The position numbers and the translations under genes were made by a program. Positions 1-49,379 of a stretch of 64,000 nucleotides of DNA are shown here, piece after piece. Source of the stretch: Wuchereria bancrofti (taxonomy: Eukaryota > Nematoda > Chromadorea > Rhabditida > Onchocercidae); assembly GCA_005281725.1 (NCBI GenBank), contig SSBO01000001.1, positions 12,071,475 through 12,135,474 of the forward strand, read 5' to 3'. The notes beneath the pieces are model-generated. The model was given only the letters and a program-made list of their open reading frames with translations. It was not told the DNA's origin and did no database searches. Each line of letters begins with the position of its first letter. Within the stretch, counting starts at the first letter, position 1.

Positions 1-7992
<7,992 letters not shown>

Positions 7993-37100: not shown

Positions 37101-39518
37101 TACGTACGTACGATATTAATACACGTACGATATTAAGTATCTTATTTTGAGAAATACATAAATCGGAAATTTTTTCAACTATATGTTTAAAATCAATATT
37201 CCTAAGTTTTTTAGCTATAGGCTTTAATACTATTAATGACATTACTTCTGACATTACTTCACATTTGTATTCAAATTATAATTTCATTAATGAAATCAAA
37301 TCTTACTGGGAGGAAAAAGCGCAAAGAAAAAGGTTAATGAATTTGTAGTGACAGCAACTGAAAGTAAAAAATCCAAAATTGTGAATAAAGAATATTTAAT
37401 AGAATATTTAATTTAAGGTTTCGAAACAATCAAAAATGAATTACAATTTCATCCGATACTTGTGTAGCATATTATTGCAGGCATTGGTAAGAGCATTCAT
37501 TTTCAAAAATGAATTAATTATAATTGATTAAAATTCATTTCGCCGCAAGTATATAATTGATTAAAATTCATTTCGCCGCAAGTATGTCTTAAAGAACTTG
37601 AAGTTTATTTTGTGAAAATCAAGAATCAAACCCACTCAAAGAAGTTTATTTTATATTTTATTTTGGCATTTAATTTTTTTTTTTTTTTTATAAAGGCTGT
37701 GACTGACAATAGATTACTAAAAAAAAAAAGCAGCATAAGTTTTATAGAATGAAGCCAAAATATAGGAAACAAAAATGTCGACTAGTCCTTTCAACAATTC
37801 CAAACTGCACTTTCCCGGATCAATAAGTAGCTTAAAAATGTCATCCCATTTTTTTTTAATCCAACTAATTTTCATCTTTCCCCTTTTACTTCTTATTTTA
37901 ACACGAAATTTTTGTGCAAAATGCATTATATAGCATATACCTTGATGCTTAGCAATTTATCAAATCATCTATTTCAATTAATCTTTCAACTTTTCTTATT
38001 AATATACGTTTTTCCAATCAAAAAGCTTGAAAGTCAGTCGATAATTGATAACACATTCTTTCAAACAAACATATCGAATGCACTTAATTGGTATCACTCA
38101 TGTTTTCAACCTTTAAATTTTTCAATGACGGAAAAAAAAGAAAAAATGGTTGATGAAAATTATTGAGAAGAAATCATTCAATTAATTAAGCTAATTTAAA
38201 CTTTGAATTGTTTAAGCAATTAAACACTTCGTTTTCACATAAAATTTACTGGTTATAAAATAAGTCAACTATCGTCTATTTCCTAAATATTACACACAAC
38301 AAATTTAATCAATCTATAATATAATATTAATAAATCTAAGAATCAAGAACAGTTATTGCTAACAAACACTGTGTAATATATTTTAATTATAACAATATCA
38401 CAAAAATAAAGATTACAAATCTAAATTGACATTCAATTGAAATATTTCTTATGCGAACGTTGTTGTTAAGAAATCATTCAAAGTGATTACGAATGAATGA
38501 ACGATGAAATAATTCAACAATCGACAAACATACATAAAATTGAACGATTATTTTTATAAACCAGTTTAACTAAATGATATAATTAAGTAAATACCAAGTC
38601 ATTTTATAAAGAATTTTGAATGAAATTGTTTCTGCGAATTATTTCATTCATCAAAAAATAATTAGTTAAAGTACAGTGCTATATCATGGAATATTTCAGT
38701 TTAAATTCTTACAAAATTTAGCATACCATCATTTTATATTCAGGATTAGTTCAATTTTAATCTAATTTATAACTTTGAATACTATAATTTAAATATTTAA
38801 ACATCAAATAACAAAAACTTTCACAAATATGTTAAAAGTTTATAATAGTTAAATGAATCCTCCATTAAGATTTTATGTTTCTATCTTGTCATCTTTGTTC
38901 CTTTTTTTTAGTATGATATTTTATTTAGCGTTCTTTTTTAAACTATATATGATATTGTTTAGCGATAATTTTGTGCTAGCATCAAAGATTAGCACTAGTT
39001 TTTAAAGAAAAAAATTCTGAAAAAACGAAAAGAAATTGAAATGAATATTGAAATTCTGGAACTAATTCAATATTTTTCTCGTTCATTTCATCTGACTGAT
39101 ATGTCTTTGCATAAGTCTGCGGCAGATTAATAAGATTCAATATTCATTTCGCTTATCACTTGACAATTACACTTACACAATGCTATCATTGATTGTTAAT
39201 CATATTTTTATGGCATATCTGTGAATAAAATTGAATAATTTCAATAAAAGTATGCAAAATCAATGAACAAACATGAAGTTTAGTCTCTCATTTTATTTCG
39301 TTTCAATATATAAATTTTCCATTTTAAATTTGTTATGTTGAAATGAAAAGAAATTGAAATTAATGGTAGCAATGAAGTATTGTAGTTTAATGCTTTGCAG
39401 ATGTACAGGAGTGGACGTGTGAGGAAGGCAATTTGTATCGCTGTCTGTCGCCTCTCATTTAACGCATTCTTTTATACGTCTTTTCTTATGTCGATAGCTG
39501 TTAAAAATTCTATTTCGA
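34121..39518. other. Long AT-rich intergenic interval
   Basis: About 5.4 kb with no gene I can support. It lies upstream of the FHIP start and upstream of the canonical U1 gene. It includes a CT-rich run near 34640-34670, a 33-bp direct duplication at 37520-37584, and several open frames of 60-90 codons whose composition is simply AT-driven. The FHIP promoter should lie at its left end. Confidence 0.55.
37520..37584. repeat. 33-bp direct tandem duplication
   Basis: Two adjacent identical copies of a unit starting TAATTGATTAAAATTC and including TTCGCCGCAAGTAT. The perfect identity suggests a recent slippage or duplication event. No function is apparent. Confidence 0.85.
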
Positions 39519-39532
39519 CCCACTCGGAGTTT
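39519..39532 (+). promoter_or_regulatory. Putative snRNA proximal sequence element (canonical U1)
   Basis: The sequence CCCACTCGGAGTTT lies about 41-54 bp upstream of the first nucleotide of the U1 gene at 39573. The variant U1 gene has CCCACTCGAAGTT at the same distance on the other strand. Shared sequence and spacing in otherwise diverged flanks is what a snRNA proximal sequence element (SNAPc site) would show. Confidence 0.65.
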
Positions 39533-39572
39533 GGTGTATCGTAGAATGATATCGCTGAATGGAGCAGCTCAT

Positions 39573-39735
39573 AAACTTACCTGGCTGGGAGGATCTCGCG
39601 ATCACGAAGGCGGGACCTCCATGGTGAGGCTTGGCCATTGCACTTCTAGGTCCGGCTGACCCGTGTGGCTATCCCGAGTTGGGGTCAGCCAACAGCAAAA
39701 TTTTTGCGTTTGGGGACAGCGTTCGCGCTTCCCTG
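39573..39735 (+). ncRNA. U1: U1 spliceosomal snRNA, canonical
   Basis: About 163 nt. The 5' end AAACTTACCTGG contains the ACUUACCUG motif that pairs with 5' splice sites. Stem-loop I has the U1-70K loop GATCACGAA. Stem-loop II shows the U1A loop ATTGCACTTC. Stem III follows, then an Sm site AATTTTTG and a terminal stem closed by a UUCG-type loop (GCGTTCGCGC). Order, length and motifs match U1 snRNA, and the 5' end is nematode-like. U1 recognises the 5' splice site at the first step of spliceosome assembly. A proximal sequence element lies upstream at 39519-39532. Confidence 0.95.
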
Positions 39736-40436
39736 CCTAAGCAGAAAAATGAGGGCACGTGGGTGGCATTCTAGCACTACGTATAAATAAGCGCGCTGCA
39801 TCGCATTGGTTGCTAGTGCGGGTAATGAAGCGAGTGTCGCAGACAACAGCGTGCATAGCGAGCCACTGGACACTATAATCACCGCCGTGGAGAGAATTTC
39901 AAACGTAAACTATAATAGATGCTATGCGATATCTGTAGATTATCATCACCGTATCTTTCAATTCACAGGTCAAACACAACTATACAATTTGTGAACTTTT
40001 GCTCTCACATAAAAGCAATATGTCAAGTGCGGGCTTTTATAACTTAAGCATGAATCTAACATATGCCAGTGAACACTTCCCCATTCTAAAAATCAGTATT
40101 CTATCTTGCACCACTTACTTTCATTCCGAAACTCTGTTCAGCTTGTGACAATAAATCAAGATTCACACTAATTCTTAAAACGATGCGCTTTAATATTCTC
40201 TCTATCACCTGGCTTATATTTAATGTAGGATAATTTATTTAGGACTTAGTAATTTAATGAATAACCTATACTTCTTTAGGTTTCCTCGCTGACACTAGCT
40301 AACCCACCCAAGGTCTCTTAGATTGCCTAACTTCAATTGTAAAGTCTTCCTTTGCATAATTCCACCATTACTTGCACTCTCCTAAATCCTCACCACTCAC
40401 ACTACCACCACCACCACCTCTGAACAATACCAACCA

Positions 40437-40600
40437 CAGGGAAGCGCGAACGCTTTCCCCAAACGCAAAAATTAAGCTGCTGGCCAATCCCGACTTGGGA
40501 TTGCCACACGGGTCAACCCGATCTAGAAGTGCAGTGACCGGGCCTCGCCATGGAGGTCCCGCCTTCATGATCGCGAGAAGCCTCTCAGCAAGGTTAGTTT
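40437..40600 (-). ncRNA. Variant U1 snRNA with altered 5'-splice-site recognition sequence
   Basis: A 164-nt U1 homologue on the minus strand, convergent with the canonical copy and about 700 bp from it. Retained features are the U1-70K loop (GATCATGAA), the Sm site (AATTTTTG) and the terminal GCGTTCGCGC hairpin. Stems II and III remain paired despite many substitutions: stem II GCCCGGUC/GAUCGGGU pairs over 8 bp. The 5' end is AAACTAACCTTG instead of AAACTTACCTGG, so it would pair with AAG|GUUAGU. Loop II is ACTGCACTTC rather than ATTGCACTTC, which may weaken U1A/SNF binding. The upstream element at 40641-40653 matches that of the canonical gene. Structure conservation argues against a decayed pseudogene; expression is unknown. 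Confidence 0.85.
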
Positions 40601-40640
40601 AAGAGCTCTTGCTGGCACCCATTCGAAGATGCCATGCATT

Positions 40641-40653
40641 GAACTTCGAGTGG
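40641..40653 (-). promoter_or_regulatory. Putative proximal sequence element (variant U1)
   Basis: CCCACTCGAAGTT on the minus strand, about 41-53 bp upstream of the variant U1 start. It differs by one base from the element upstream of the canonical U1 and sits at the same distance. This implies the variant is still a transcription unit. Confidence 0.6.
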
Positions 40654-42789
40654 GTTCCTCTGTGCAACTCGGCAACCCCTCCCCTCCTTTCTATCTCTGT
40701 TACAAACGTAATTACTGAGACACCTCCATATTCTGCGTAGTCTTTTCGCGTTGAGCTGCAGATTTATTTTTCGATTCACAAATTTTATGCTAATTTATTT
40801 CAGCAATTTGTGTATGTTGGTGGCATTGTTAGGCTGTATCGTAGAAAATTCAGCTTGACTGAGATACAAAACACAAATATGATCTTGTCCGGAAAAATTC
40901 CAAAATGTTTCCTGTTGGAACAATTTTGTTTCACTTACGGAGAAGGTAAAGAATAAACTATTTGTTTAAAAAATCTCAGATATCATAAATGGGGTAACAT
41001 AGATCAGAAGGAAGGTATTCTTGATCTCTTACCGACATATTTTTTTGACATCTACAGTGGCAGATGTCTTTTAAAAGACACAGCAGATTGTAATGGCCAA
41101 ATTACGAAAGTTATTAAATTTTAAATCGTAATCGCCCTCAACTAACCGGGCTAAGTCGAACAAAGAATTAAGTAGTGTTTATTTTGTAAACTGAATCCTT
41201 AGACAGTCGAAAACAATTCACAGTTCGAGGATCCTGAAAATTGTGCTTTTACCATCAATGGTGATACTTTTGTCAACATAAGGATTATGAGTAGGTTGTT
41301 ACATGACTGAAAGATATGATGACATTCATTCTTCAGAAACGATGACAAGGTGATTACGTCAAGACTTCATTCCTCGTATGACATTAAAATACAGCCAAGC
41401 AACTAAAATTTAGTCAATCCCCGAGATTCGCTGTATTGTTCAGCCCTTCTCTTATTGAGGATGCAATTCACCTTCACCAGAGGAGATCTATCCCTCATTT
41501 TCCTTGCCTACAAACTTTTGCTTCTAAAAATGAAGCGTATGGGCAGCCAATAGGGCCGGAGAAAAGTGTGAAATGTGCATTAACAACTAACAAATGGTAA
41601 TATGTTTGCTTTTGACAAACGCGATTTTCAAGAGAAAAATTTCCGCTTTGCTGACATTCGCGTGATTCATTCTTCATTCATCTTCCTCGTAATTTTTTCG
41701 CTGTAATATTTGGATGACAAGTTTTAAATATAGCAAATTTGCATAATTTATTCTTCACAACAATATTAAACAATGGTGAAGAATTAAAAAAAGACAACAT
41801 ATGAAAACTAACAAATAAATATAGGATTTGAACGATGATTTATGCGAAATTCGGCCTCATATGGCGCAGTTCCTGCTCTTCGAATCAATGCTGTATAGAA
41901 AGATGAGGTGAGGGGGAAAACGAAATCGTATTGTGAAACAACTGAAGTAGAAAATAGTGTCGAGAATTATAATGAATTTTCTTTAACCTACTCTCTACAA
42001 CATAAATTGTTTCTTTTTTCATTTCATTCTGCTTCTTAATTTTATTCCATATTCAGTTTTTAGACTGAAAATACTCCGTCGAATATTTCCAAATTTTGAT
42101 GTCTCGCAGACCTGCACTGTAAACGTCCAAAAAGAAAACTAACCGCACAACTAACCACTGCAAATACGTTTAACTAACCAGCAAAATTCGAGATCGAAAT
42201 TTATTTCCATAGCAAGAGAATAAATAGCAAGAAACACCCTCTATCACATTCACAGTAATGTTAATTAGTCGAATTTCAAAGACAAAAAGGAAATTCTTTT
42301 CCGATGTTCCACTTTTTCACCAAAAGAGACTAGAATTACGAGGATGCTCAGGAATCAGATCATATTTTACTTCAAGAAAATAAAATGGGACCAACAAATT
42401 TTCCTTCTGTTTACATATTTATGGAAGAAAGCAATTCACAAGTATATAATCCAAACACGATTCCAAATTTAAAACAGTAAAAAGTGACACATAACCTTGT
42501 GCAACATTGCCGTTAAAAATTCTGTTTAGTGGCAGAGTATGCAAGCTGAAAGTAAAAGGCTTCGAAATTTTCGCAAACATTAACTAATTAATAAGGCTTT
42601 TTGTCAAGGGCACAAAAAAGAATTCCAAAAACATCATTTTGATGGCTTTTAGCTATAAGTATCTTTTGATCGGATTAAAAAAAAGCTGCAACCCTTACGG
42701 TATTCACACTACTGAAAAACACTCAAACAATTCAACAATGATTAAATAAATTAAATTCAAGAAAAAAATCGTAACAGATTGTCCTCATA
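40654..42789. other. Intergenic interval between variant U1 and VPS50
   Basis: About 2.1 kb with somewhat higher G+C than the flanking deserts in places, but no coding frame, RNA gene or element that I recognise. The right end should hold the VPS50 3' UTR. Confidence 0.5.
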
Positions 42790-45700
42790 TTATTCCTCGA
42801 GTGCATTAATAATTCGTGTTCGGGCTTTCTTCGAAATATGTGTCGCCACATTCAAAAGTGTTATGATTTGATTTGTTGTGTATTCCTGTAAAAAAAAAAA
42901 TCAAGAACAATCAAGCCGAAATGAAACCAGCATATCATATTGATTCAATCATGCTTTCAGAACAAAGACTTACCCAAGCAGTGCTACAAAATATTTACTG
43001 CCTTTTCAATATTTCCACTCTCTCAACAAACAGCTAATTTCAGCAAATAGTAATATATGTTCTAAAATGTTGGACGATTTGTTTTTACAGTAATTGACTT
43101 CTGAAAAACAAATTTTAATTTTTAAATCAATCACGAAACCTCTAATAAAGCAATGAATTACTTACTCTGTGCTGCAAAATCCACGATTCCATCGAACTTT
43201 CAGGTAAATAATAAGCTTTGATGTAATTTTCGACATATGCTTTGTATGGGATAGGCATAAAATCGACAAGTTGTTCGAGTTTTGCAATTAACTGTTGGAA
43301 ATCTAATTGCATTAATGCACGTCCTTCATTCGAGCATTTTTTCCCAAATTCACCATAGCTTCAAATAAATCTCTCAATATTAAGAGTGAAGGAATTTTAT
43401 CTTTGTATAGATACAGAGGTAAAAAGAGAAAGAGAAAAACTGCGACAAACATTAGACCAAATGTAAAGTGTGGAAAGGAATATACCCTTTGACAAGTGCA
43501 TTAAATGTGCAATATATAACTATGCTCCAAAAAGTCTTCTGAACCGATCTTGTAATTGGTATTTGTTTTGCGATTTCAGAAAGCAAATCGTTAATCCTTG
43601 AAAATTCCTGCAATGTATGTAATGCGAGTAATACATCTAAAGTTAATAACAAAATATGACAGTATTATTCTGAAACATACATTTGCAGAAAGTTAAGCAT
43701 CAGGGAAACTAGAAGATGCAAAAATCTGGAACCTTCATATAGCTAAATAATGCGAAATATTTTTATCTAGAACAAAAAAAGATTAATGAAGCGGAATGAA
43801 TATACCTGTAAAATATTATCAACATAAGTGCTATGCTGCGATTGCAACTGACAAATGTCCCATTTCGTTGTCACTATATCATTTACAAACCAATCATAAT
43901 CAATTAAACAGCTTATTGCACAAGCATAGATACATTCTCTCATTTTTGGTATCACAGCCAGGATCTGAATTCTTTTAGTTTAGAAAAAGAAAAAATGTTG
44001 AGTATAGCACAAGCCATAACTACGCAGTTATATTAAGAATGCAATACAAGCTCAATACAAGTTATACCACCTCTGCATAGTACTTCTCGATGACATCACG
44101 ATTAACCAGCGATTCAATAACTGGGCGGATGAGATCAAGTTGTTTAGAAATAAAATTTCTGAAAATCTTCACCAATTGGATTTAATAGAGAATTTTAAGT
44201 AAATAATAAAAAATAACATCACTTACACAGATTCAGCGCCAACAATACGTTCACGTAAGGCATAACTAGGTGCTGAATCAAGCTTAACATCTTGTAACAG
44301 TGTGCAGGGAAAACATTTAAATTTCTGAAAAATTATAGTTATAATTCCAATTAAAAGCAAAAGCAAAGAAAGAGGCTAATTTATAAATTATGAGCTTCAA
44401 TATCCAAAAATAAAATTATCCAGGAAATAGAAAAGTTTGGAGGAATTAAAACAAAACATGCCCAAAAATAGACTAGCAATTTGATAAAAAGAAATACAAC
44501 TCACGCTTGCACCTTCTGAAGATGAATCATCACTAAATAAATCATTTTCTAAATTGTCCACAACATTCTTTAAGTTTGGAGAGAAAAAAGATTCGGCAAC
44601 ATTATGTGCATTTGACACGAAAAATGAATATACCTGGAAAAAATACTAAATAGTAATTAATCATTTGAGTTCGGACAAAACAAAATTTGGAGCAGCCAAC
44701 TTGTAACAAATAAAATAAAATTTAAAACAGCTTTACCGCAAAGAAAAAATAGCTGCAGAGTTCAAAAATACCATTTACAGCTTGATCAGCAACTGAGTGA
44801 AGCACATAAGCCATCCGAATGTATTTCCCTAAATTGTCAAACTGACAAACTTGAACAAAGGACAGTTTCTGACAATAAAAAGCAAAAAAAAAAAATGAAG
44901 TTGAATGAAACGAAAACAGACCAATAAAGCGTAAGAGATTCAACGATGCATTACAAAGAATTGGAGCCAGCTGTGAGAAACTACCATCCACACGATATCT
45001 ACCGATGAAATAAAATGTCAGAATTTTAAAGTGAAAATGTTCTCTTAATAATAAAAGTGACTGAAAATTCTTCATTAAATGAGAAATTATTAAGAAGCAA
45101 ACGTACTAAAAATCAGGTTCCTTAGGATAGCTTATTTAATTGGCATATGGCATAGAATTTAGAACAGCAGTACCAGCAATTTATACTATTACAGTTCTAT
45201 ATACTCTATGTTTATTTGCAATGATCTAAAATTATTTCGAAAACACATCTTTTAACTTTACAAAAAATGACAACAAAAGAGAAATTGAAACAAATAAAGA
45301 TCTAAACTAGAAAACTTTATCCTGTTAAGCCTTATAAGAACTGTAAAGATGAAAAGCTTACCTGTCACTGTCCACATCATCGTTTGACGGATTTTTCGCA
45401 CTTGAAATAACGGTGATATCGACATCCTGAAGGGAAAGTTTGAAACATAAAAAACATGCAATAGTTTCTAGTTCCTATCCATTAATAGCAATACAATACA
45501 AAAATCACATAAATACTAACCTTAGCAGAAGAATCCATATCTGTAGCTCCCACCAGAAAAGGATTTACATCGGTCGGCTGAAGAATCTGAAAGTCTAATG
45601 GCTCACCGAGATCCAGATCAATTTTAGAATGTGAAGAAGAATCCAGTCCTCGACATCCATTCGATTCTTTCAGAAAACTGAATTCCTTAAAACCAGAAAT

Positions 45701-48700
45701 ATGTACAAATTGAAATTCTGTACTCCTATTTACTATTTCAATAATTACTGTTAAGAAAATTAGACCAGAGTAAAGCTCCATAATTTAAAGGTGCTCATGA
45801 TCCAATACTATTTAAAGTGTTGGTACGTGTGCATTTCCGTTCATCTTGGTAAGTGCGCAAATATTCCCTAATCTCGAAAATACGTTAGAAACACAGTCTT
45901 TGAAATAAACAGTAAACAGCAATGTAATATTAAATATTTCACCTGAAAATCGAACAAAGTGAATTGTAATGGCACCGGACATAAAGCAAAAGCTTCGTTT
46001 TCCAAAAACATACGTAACTCATCCATCCGATCATAATGGAATCTAAATGAAAAACGTATAAAACTGCTCGATGAATTACAGTTTTATGACAAACCTCTTG
46101 AAGTACTGATGACTCTGCTTTTCCAATGACATCGTAACTTCACCACAAATATTACCAAAATAAGTGCGACCAAATTGTTTGAATCTTTAAATTTATAAAT
46201 TAATGTGTATATTACAGGTAAATAAATGTCCAGGATAATGCTAAACTGTTTAAATCAAAACCTACATAAAACAACATCAAACAAAAAAATCTTTGAAGAA
46301 ATAAAGATACAAACATTTGTAAAGGAAAATGTGGGGAAGTAATAATTGGAACTAACCGGTTTGACATCTCAATAATATCCAGAAATTGATCGATTTTTAG
46401 AAGCGAGAGATCATGACAATATAATAAAGTGCTGAATTTTACTGATGCAGTCTTGAAAATAGAATATAAGGAATCCACGAGAATTTTACGAACAATACCC
46501 ATATTTTCTAGAATGTACCTAACCTAACAATGAACAATAAAGAAGTTGTCATCCTATAACTGCAGTTACGCTGATAAAATTGATTTCATTTCAGACAACC
46601 AGTAATTAATCAGTCCAGTAGCTTGAAAAATATTACTAAAAAAAATTAGAATCTGAGTCATAAAATGATATCAATTGAACAACTGACCTGTTTTTTCGTG
46701 TGCACATTCTAACCTTTCATCTTCATCTATGTGGAAAAACAAAATAGAATGATATGTAAACAACACTTTACAAATAACAAACCCCAACTCGCGCACACAG
46801 TCTAATATTTGTCCCATATCCACAGCCTGTATAAAATCAACAAAATTTTAAGAAACTCTACATCTTCTAATCTTTCATCTTCATCCATGTGAAAGAGCAT
46901 CAAATAAATCAAAACAAACCTCACAAAGCTGCTCATATGATAATTCTTCAATTTTTGCCTCAGTCTTAATCGGCAGTATCTTATCAATGATAACCGTCCT
47001 CGCTGAACTTTCTAAAGTTGCACGAGTGAAGCCAACCACTTTCATCCCACATTCCTTGAAAAAAAAATATAAAAATTAACTGAACAATAAGAATCTGCGG
47101 CATTTTTAGTGTACTATTAAGTAAACCATCTTAAAATGACTTAATTATATTATTTTTCAAATGAAAGAAAATCCACTACCTCAACTTTACCTAACAATTT
47201 ATAGGCAGTATAAATCGATGAGTAACGATCAACGCTGAATAAAATCGTTATTGAGGCCAAACAGTTATCCAAATTTATTTCGATTTCTTCCAAAGTTTCA
47301 TGCAACTTCGTTGATAACTCTCTGTAAATAGCTCCCAACTAAAAAAATTAAACTCAAGAAGAATAAATAAGAATTTAAGAAACATATACTATTAAATATC
47401 CCATTTTTATGTCAGATGTTTAATAAAAGTTTGAGTTTATTAAATATCTGGCACAAAAAATTATTAATTTGCTGTTAAAGCTGAGAAAACACCATTTTCT
47501 AAAATTTCCCATTCGTCCAATTTCGTAAACAACTTTGCACCCTTAACTTCCTTTTCGAAGATGAATTAACATCTAGAACTAGAATCTGGATTTGTACTTC
47601 ATTTTTTAATTGACATAATAAAAAACTTCAAAAATATTTGTGAAGTTATCTTTTATTCTTAAAATTAAGTAAAAATTGTTACTTGACGCAGCTGAACTGA
47701 TTAAAAGTTACTGTAGCTTTCTGTGCTTCGTAGCACATATTAATAGCTGCAGGGAAATTCTCCTCCTGAAAATAACTGGAACATGCAGTAGTGTACTGTT
47801 AATAAAAGTTGATAAGCATCTCTCCCCTAAAAAGCGCTACACAAATAACAACAAAGTACTACAAAAAACAAGGCTAACAACATCCGACCTGGACAAGGTC
47901 CTTAATTTGAAACTGCACTTCGTATAATGTTTTAATGTCCTCGAGGGATGACAATAACTTCTTTAAAAATACTCGATTTCTGTAATTTGCGATTATTTCC
48001 AGACCATTTTGATTTTCAAGTTTCGCTTGAGCAAGTTTCCTGTGATGGAAATAAAAATAAAAAATTGTATTGAAAGAGCGCATATCATTTATACAGGTAA
48101 ACCTGTAACTGCGATAGATCAGAATTCCTGGATTTTTATTTTATTAAGGAACTACAGTCATACGCAGTTGGTAAACAGAATGTATATAATTCTGTATTGC
48201 ATAAATATCATTATCAAAACATCACTGATTAGATTACCACTACATCACTCTTCTAGTTTAAATCTATTGTTTCAAGAAGTAAAAATGGCTGGCATGAAAC
48301 ATTACACAGATTGTGCAAAACAAAACAATTTAGAAGTGAACAGATCACAAGATGCATTTATAATATAAAACTAACTTTCGTATATTTTGCACTACCAAAA
48401 GGATACTATTTAGATCTTTTTGAATTTCAGCAATATCTTCCAGCTGGGATGAATAAGACGGCCAGTCCTGCATAATCACTTCCGATACCCGTTTAGAAAC
48501 AACTTGTAATTGTTGCTTTAATTTGTCCATTTCTCCAGTTAAATCTTCAGGCAAAATATCAGCACCCATAACTTTCTAAATTATGTAATGATTCAATGGA
48601 AGAAAACCTGAAAAATAAAAATTTCTGCAGAACTTCTCACTTAACTAAACTTAAAATTCAAAAATTTCCCACAAAATTCACTTTCAGTTCATAGTCGGTT

Positions 48701-48934
48701 GCATCGAATCCTTCATCGATGAAATATGCTGCATCAATACTTTCCAATATTTCCGTTTCCTTAACCGGATCTGTGATTGGCAAAGCAGTTTGTAACTGCA
48801 AATTATTCCCAAATGAAGCGAATTTATTTAAAGCATTTAAATGTGAAACAAAACAAAAAACATACAATCATAGATTTAGCCGACCCACGACCAGAAGAGT
48901 CTCGCACCACGATTATGTTATCTATCGAATCCAT
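42790..48934 (-). CDS. vps-50: VPS50 / syndetin, EARP complex subunit
   Basis: Twenty-two exons: 48934-48866, 48795-48682, 48575-48376, 48039-47889, 47765-47688, 47338-47180, 47054-46920, 46826-46714, 46518-46357, 46184-46095, 46042-45943, 45685-45521, 45426-45362, 44998-44922, 44828-44737, 44633-44505, 44324-44227, 44158-44071, 43964-43806, 43607-43486, 43358-43166, 42885-42790. They encode about 884 residues. Family-specific blocks run in syndetin order: N-terminal [45 protein letters not shown], then C-terminal [34 protein letters not shown] and YIKAYYLPE. Syndetin replaces VPS54 in the EARP tether and acts in endosomal recycling and, in worms, dense-core vesicle maturation. The acceptor-like ATTCAG directly abuts the ATG. 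Many donors are unusual at +3 (GTT or GTC). Confidence 0.92.
46860..46919 (-). pseudogene. Degenerate copy of a VPS50 exon 8 segment inside intron 7
   Basis: Intron 7 contains sequence clearly related to the 3' half of the next exon: CACATGGATGAAGATGAAAG versus CACATAGATGAAGATGAAAG in exon 8, plus a shared GGTTTGTT start. In exon 8 this ends at the donor AAAG|GTTAGA. In the copy the corresponding bases are AAAGATTAGA, so the donor GT is lost. It looks like a relic of a local tandem duplication of part of the exon. Confidence 0.6.
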
Positions 48935-49175
48935 CTGAATGCATTAAATCGAATTGGTTAAGTTTATCATGAAGATTTATCCATCTTGAGTGCAACACTT
49001 TTACAATAATATAAAAGTGAAGAGTCCCTTATGACAACTGTTGTATCCTTTTATTCAGTTAGTGTTAACACCAAAAACTACTTAAAAGTCATCTGTACAG
49101 GGAGGGAATGAGGAAATTTTTCTTCATTATTTTTTTGAAAATACAAATTTGCAAAAAATTTGAGTTCATTGAAAC

Positions 49176-49379
49176 ATGGCGGCAGGTGCTACGCAGGAAC
49201 AATGCTTGATAACACGAATGAGTATTAACAGCAGTAGAAAGGCTGTTTCTAAAACTAAAGAATTCTATCGAAGTGAAAAGCATAAATCAGTTACTGTAGT
49301 TTCATCCTCTTCATTTCGGCAAAGTTGTACTGAGTTAGACTTTTTCATCGTCAGTTACTCCAATGACTATTTCGGCTGA
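49176..49379 (+). CDS. Weak candidate short ORF, no known family
   Basis: A 67-residue ORF begins in good initiation context (ACATGG). Its composition is Ser/Lys-rich (NSSRKAVSKTKEFYRSEKHK, then VSSSS). It lies in the interval between the divergent VPS50 and RPP25-like genes and is less AT-rich than its surroundings. I see no domain, no homologue I recognise and no obvious splice partners. It could be a small lineage-specific gene or a 5' exon, or chance. Confidence 0.2.
   Translation: MAAGATQEQCLITRMSINSSRKAVSKTKEFYRSEKHKSVTVVSSSSFRQSCTELDFFIVSYSNDYFG

Follow-up and report, generated by a model that had tools for sequence, protein, structure and literature searches.

The U1 gene pair and its surroundings

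The window, i.e., the whole 64,000-nt stretch of Wuchereria bancrofti DNA that was analysed, contains two U1 snRNA genes lying tail to tail: a canonical one on the plus strand (39573..39736) and a variant of 164 nt on the minus strand (40437..40600). The arms of this inverted pair are separated by 701 nt. A scan of the window with Rfam at gathering scores gave two matches, both to the U1 covariance model (RF00003, gathering cut-off 69.5 bits) and both end to end, with 127.3 bits for the canonical copy and 112.4 bits for the variant (E 1.6e-27; model positions 1-166 of 166). Since both matches lie far above the cut-off and run end to end, their identity as U1 is not due to chance, and the segment 40600-40437 (-) is, by sequence match, a full-length U1 snRNA. 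No RNA family other than the two U1 genes was found between 34 and 44 kb (E up to 0.1).

A syndetin (VPS50/CCDC132) gene occupies 42793..49348 on the minus strand; about 2.2 kb separate its last matched codon from the variant, which lies downstream. This gene was recognised by its Pfam domains Vps54_N and Syndetin_C and follows a W. bancrofti protein (P0001) in 23 exon blocks. Its full-length query, which contained mispredicted exons, was 92-93% identical to W. bancrofti entries and 83-88% to those of Brugia. Twenty-two junctions were reported, of which the 21 that translate without mismatch were used; the remaining one, with 6 mismatches, was discarded because a spurious block had produced it, the true junction there having +3C in the gene model. 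The window also holds a long simple repeat (4227-5145), whose translation is (LSIY)n in several minus-strand frames that overlap one another. A single model on one strand fuses bystin with mitochondrial ribosomal protein L3 (L039-L048, 24162-33704 of the joined 100 kb), and these close same-strand genes possibly form an operon.

The 86.5-Mb genome contains at least five U1 loci above the cut-off (41 of 852 first-look candidates were scored), and a DNA search with the variant returned the same five loci plus a truncated fragment at C3. A scan for U1 genes of relatives, with one U1 pattern run against the collections genome_contigs and viral_contigs, gave 0 matches. Three of the five carry the canonical 5′ arm; the other two are the variant and a copy at C12 (L005:1501-1668; G000 C12:21117108-21117275), whose arm AAACUUACUUGG has C changed to U opposite donor position -1. 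The terminal hairpin of the C12 copy is strongly different, and the copy retains 40 of 46 consensus pairs. Another copy, at C2 (L003:1501-1662; G000 C2:607446-607607), has the canonical arm, and its binding of 70K may be altered because its SL1 loop reads GACCAACAAG in place of GAUCANGAAG. A decayed 3′ U1 fragment (L010:1501-1580) and a decayed U2 copy without promoter element (L023:1501-1679) are usable as local pseudogene controls.

Mutual identity among the five copies is only 72-88%, and the family is therefore diverse rather than homogenised. The canonical 5′ arm is nevertheless identical in three copies whose remaining sequence differs by 12-18%, showing that the arm is not generally free to drift. 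In SL3 (26 columns), the three canonical copies differ from one another at 0-1 positions, whereas the variant shows 6-7 differences and the C12 copy 7-8. Four informative sites, all in SL2 or SL3, separate the variant and C12 from the three canonical copies, while the next-best splits have 2 sites, or 3 if a third-letter site is counted; the variant and C12 also have an extra nucleotide at a common column, with different letters. These few and unrooted sites hint that the two copies form a second U1 lineage.

Anatomy, promoter and flanks of the variant

The altered 5′ arm AAACUAACCUUG (40589..40600, minus strand; read from the sequence and from alignment with the four other copies) is complementary to CAAG|GUUAGUUU, and the corresponding arm of the canonical neighbour is AAACUUACCUGG. 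Comparison of the two arms, AAACTAACCTTG and AAACTTACCTGG, shows a U-to-A change at U1 position 6, opposite donor position +3, and a G-to-U change at position 11, opposite -3. Where a canonical U1 has an arm complementary to the consensus donor (ACUUACCUG), this gene has AAACUAACCUU, departing at both positions, and it is therefore named a variant rather than a canonical U1.

The SL1 loop GAUCAUGAAG (40563..40572, minus strand), which we take to be the binding loop of U1-70K, is kept according to the Rfam match and the five-copy comparison, and SL1 as a whole has one extra nucleotide. In SL2, the 5′ stem arm GCCCGGUC (40536..40543) and the 3′ stem arm GAUCGGGU (40516..40523), both on the minus strand, pair fully if G-U is counted, whereas the canonical stem GCUUGGCC/GGUCCGGC has one U-C mismatch; a C-G pair has also been replaced by a compensatory U-A pair at alignment columns 64/79. 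The loop between these arms (40529..40535, minus strand) reads ACUGCAC in place of the AUUGCAC of the four other copies and of the Rfam consensus, which is presumably a U1A-type binding site; this change, CAUUGCAC to CACUGCAC, occurs in the variant only. The Sm site AAUUUUUG (40466..40473, minus strand) is kept in the alignment with the other copies, and the terminal hairpin SL4 (40438..40460, minus strand) is paired.

The preliminary description of this DNA was accurate in the coordinates, strand and letters of the variant, as checked against the window sequence, and in placing a canonical copy about 700 bp away, and the covariance-model search that it proposed for both copies is the one reported above. 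It was likewise right about the shift of donor pairing in the arm (+3 to U, -3 to A), about the lost mismatch and compensatory change in stem II, and about the retention of the U1-70K loop, Sm site, terminal hairpin and promoter element. It mentioned neither the changed U1A-type loop nor the extra nucleotide in SL1, and it was likewise silent on the six SL3 differences and on the genomic U1 copy whose 5′ arm is altered in a different way.

The variant differs from its neighbour in 25 columns, comprising 23 substitutions and 2 gaps. The substitutions are distributed over the arm (2), SL1 (3), SL2 (8), SL3 (6), H3/Sm (3) and SL4 (1), and polarisation by the other three copies makes 18 of the 23 derived in the variant and 2 in the neighbour, with 3 unclear. 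The variant-derived substitutions are not concentrated in the 11-nt arm (2 of 18), which counts against retargeting. SL4 and SL1 are much nearer the neighbour (1 difference in 24 aligned columns and 3 in 32, respectively) than columns 54-128, which carry 17 of the 23 (P=0.006), and gene conversion could therefore have helped to keep the variant similar to its neighbour.

Decay of the variant was assessed by pair retention, using 20,000 random sets in which substitutions of equal number and type were placed on the neighbour copy. Of the 46 pairs in the five-copy consensus structure, 45 are intact in the variant (random mean 37.7, P 0.00005-0.0001); with the numbers of paired and unpaired changes matched, the random mean is 39.8 (P 0.0005-0.0007). 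Because this consensus had included the variant itself, the test was redone on a structure built from the four remaining copies, and the variant retained 43 of 45 pairs against a random mean of 37.7 (P=0.005). Pair retention above random (P 0.02 or less) was also seen when three of these four copies were compared with the neighbour in the same manner, and the test therefore measures decay, not specialisation.

As is the case for variant U1 genes with an snRNA promoter of their own, a predicted PSE-like element is found upstream of the variant (40636..40657, minus strand), starting at -57, a position shared by all four other U1 genes, including the canonical neighbour (39516..39537, plus strand). 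The promoter model describes a 22-nt element from 11 promoters of U1, U2, U4, U5 and U6 genes, with the variant left out, and gives the variant a held-out score of 13.0. This is the sole minus-strand site in the window with such a score, and two sites on the plus strand reach it, one of which is the canonical U1 promoter. The other U1 genes have leave-one-out scores of 15.7, 14.2, 9.9 and -0.1, which are mildly favoured by motif positions fixed beforehand, and the variant falls between these extremes; with no U1 gene in the training set, the score of the variant is 16.4. The decayed U2 copy scores -7.8.

Identity to the neighbour is 85% in the gene, 81% in the promoter core (-57..-42) and 70% in -10..-1, next to the start, where the alignment places GAGCTCTT (40601..40608, minus strand) opposite GAGCTCAT, AAGCTCAT and CAGCTCAT of the canonical copies. 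The segments -32..-11, -100..-61, +165..+200 and +201..+500 match the neighbour no better than shuffled letters do (P 0.41-0.95). A weak excess over shuffles in -400..-101 (P=0.023) counts against the reading preferred below. The conserved parts thus flank a saturated spacer, suggesting that purifying selection has acted since the two U1 genes separated. The sequence gives good support for an intact and probably functional gene.

Donor sites and the altered arm

Donors with U at +3 exist in this genome. They account for 5 of the 21 protein-verified syndetin introns, where 3 donors read GTTAGT and 2 others read GTAAGT (one donor is TAAG|GTTAGTATT). In four genes with homology-supported parts, 8 of the 31 introns within these parts have +3U, and the gene finder gives it at 26 of its 103 filtered introns and at 68 of all 241, these three sets overlapping one another. 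The gene finder was self-trained and blind to -3 and +3; one setting, giving 57 introns, was too strict and was replaced by the last of three looser settings, across all of which +3U amounts to 28-33%. At the filtered donors, +3U is rarer than after GT inside introns (25% vs. 41%, P=0.0009), and since U follows 41% of intronic GT, the 25% at donors represents a depletion rather than a preference.

Predicted duplex energies for the 103 filtered donors favour the canonical arm by at least 1 kcal at 66 and the variant arm at 13, with 24 in between. Counted as Watson-Crick pairs, the two arms are even, with averages of 6.69 and 6.67; the variant forms more pairs at 31 donors, fewer at 39 and equal numbers at 33. 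The spliced-leader donor was considered as a target of the variant and rejected: in the five SL1 copies examined (L011-L014, L016), it reads GAG|GTAATT or, in one, GAG|GTAAAT, which the variant mismatches at +3. The genome has nine SL1 RNA matches (L011-L019), seven of them above the cut-off.

Genome-wide, there are 254 copies of the word MAGGTTAGTTT, one of them within a U1 gene, compared with 103-148 expected from Markov models of order 1-4 built from 264 kb; for MAGGTAAGTTT there are 214 copies, three of them within U1 genes, against 148-226 expected. A control word, MAGHTWAGTTT, fits the models roughly (1750 vs. 1690-2160). The 12-mer matching the variant, CAAGGTTAGTTT, is found 33 times (9-18 expected), and the canonical 12-mer, CCAGGTAAGTTT, 14 times (6-12 expected). 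When reversed words, which do not preserve dinucleotides, serve as the control, there is no excess of CAAGGTTAGTTT (33 to 33), MAGGTTAGTTT (254 to 358) or MAGGTWAGTTT (468 to 778), and the canonical 12-mer stands at 14 to 7. The excess of MAGGTTAGTTT over the Markov models may in part consist of ACTAAC elements on the other strand. Altogether, the genome-wide word counts on retargeting are mixed.

The second arm change predicts that A at -3 should accompany U at +3. Among the first 100 of the 468 places, with 4 that lie in U1 genes set aside, the ratio of -3A to -3C is 42:18 with +3U and 25:11 with +3A, and these near-equal ratios therefore give no sign of linkage. Nor does the ratio of U to A at +3 differ between the donor word (253:211) and the first 100 places of the control word (49:51; P=0.32).

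A dedicated class of +3U donors thus leaves no clear sign in the intron sets or in the genome-wide words. The preliminary description had called the variant a functional, specialised U1 retargeted to GUUAGU 5′ splice sites and not a dead copy. The structure, promoter and flank controls bear out the part that the gene is not dead, and GUUAGU donors do exist, but no clear donor class accompanies the altered arm, -3A being unlinked to +3U and +3U lying below the intron background. Retargeting of the variant to such donors is possible, but only in the sense that it is compatible with the data.

Readings of the variant and known U1 variants

The explanation that we prefer, with a probability of roughly 0.5, is that the variant is the RNA of an auxiliary U1 particle that surpasses canonical U1 in binding +3U (GUUAGU-like) donors. 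The variant snRNA would be transcribed from an RNA polymerase II-type snRNA gene and would then assemble into a particle with an Sm ring and 70K, probably with weakened or altered U1A binding. The changed 5′ arm would form Watson-Crick pairs with donors that carry +3U and -3A, and the particle would be used in the cell on +3U donors. Judged by the anatomy of the variant, such retargeting appears to be the simplest mechanism on offer.

It is somewhat unlikely, though a serious alternative, that the variant is a functional U1 paralogue without any donor specialty, whose arm, SL2 and SL3 drifted under relaxed constraint while the canonical copies sufficed; it would still enter particles and add to the general U1 dose or shield transcripts from early cleavage. 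The diversity of the five copies, the dispersal of changes over arm, SL2 and SL3, the C2 copy combining a canonical arm with an altered 70K-type loop, and the donor-like words without association of -3 and +3, together with +3U below background, all speak for such drift, but the arm has stayed invariant in the three canonical copies in spite of their divergence elsewhere. Rather doubtful is a descent of the variant and C12 from an older second U1 lineage, with later partial conversion of the variant by its neighbour, a history that would be compatible with the auxiliary-particle explanation. The 4 sites in SL2/SL3 and the extra nucleotide at one column argue for it; however, the sites are few and have no root, the 5′ arms of the variant and C12 are unlike each other, and the SL4 and promoter of the variant side with the neighbour.

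It seems quite improbable that the variant is a pseudogene, either young or in decay, whose resemblance to its inverted neighbour 701 nt away is maintained by gene conversion. Such a history would fit the uneven differences between SL4 or SL1 and columns 54-128, the Rfam score below those of all three canonical copies and the changed U1A-type loop. Against it, the changes in SL2 retain or improve pairing, the promoter element is still at -57 although the spacer is saturated, and two decayed snRNA copies of this genome, the truncated U1 at C3 and the U2 copy lacking a promoter element, look unlike the variant. A broader scheme, which we regard as clearly unlikely, is that Wuchereria and its relatives split donor reading between canonical U1 and a second lineage (the variant and C12, both changed in SL2/SL3), with the variant serving the roughly one quarter of donors with +3U and the ratio of the U1 types tuning the choice, perhaps by stage.

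If the variant is used as the auxiliary-particle explanation proposes, it would represent a naturally occurring U1 with an arm change that fits a donor type present in about one quarter of the sampled introns of the same genome. It would also offer a clean system in which to study how U1 paralogues set splice-site choice, with one gene, two arm changes and an adjoining canonical copy, and filarial gene prediction and splicing models should then allow two U1 specificities.

Compared with canonical U1 (Rfam RF00003), the variant has the same length, four stem-loops, 70K-type loop and Sm site, and its promoter sits where the remaining U1 genes of the worm have theirs; what differs are two positions of the 5′ arm and one of the U1A-type loop. 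With changes at positions 6 and 11 and in the SL2 loop, it falls in the class of variant U1s, i.e., paralogues altered in the arm and in a protein-binding loop. The available parts of the literature on nematode and filarial U1 snRNA, including a C. elegans Integrator paper (PMC6390993), contain no filarial U1 variant, which does not imply its absence from print.

According to the accessible portions of a planarian study (PMC6312358), Schmidtea has variant U1 snRNAs, U1C1/U1C2, with C changed to U opposite -1 and with measured expression, for which the authors raised special donor recognition as a possibility. In common with the filarial variant, they have a very similar predicted U1 structure, an altered base within the 5′ splice-site motif and protein loops that have changed. 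Their arm change, in contrast, equals that of the C12 copy rather than that of the variant. In humans, as described in the excerpts at hand (PMC13172311, PMC5159530), vU1.3/.4 carry a C-to-T change by which AT rather than GT donors might be read, the U1A site of vU1.8 is affected by a small deletion, and vU1 genes have been tested by knock-out. These are likewise paralogous U1 genes with changes in the 5′ arm and in protein loops, although the change in vU1.3/.4 would concern AT/GT reading, whereas -3 and +3 are affected in the filarial variant. Variant U1s with an altered arm are already known in humans and planarians, and the filarial gene adds to a known kind.
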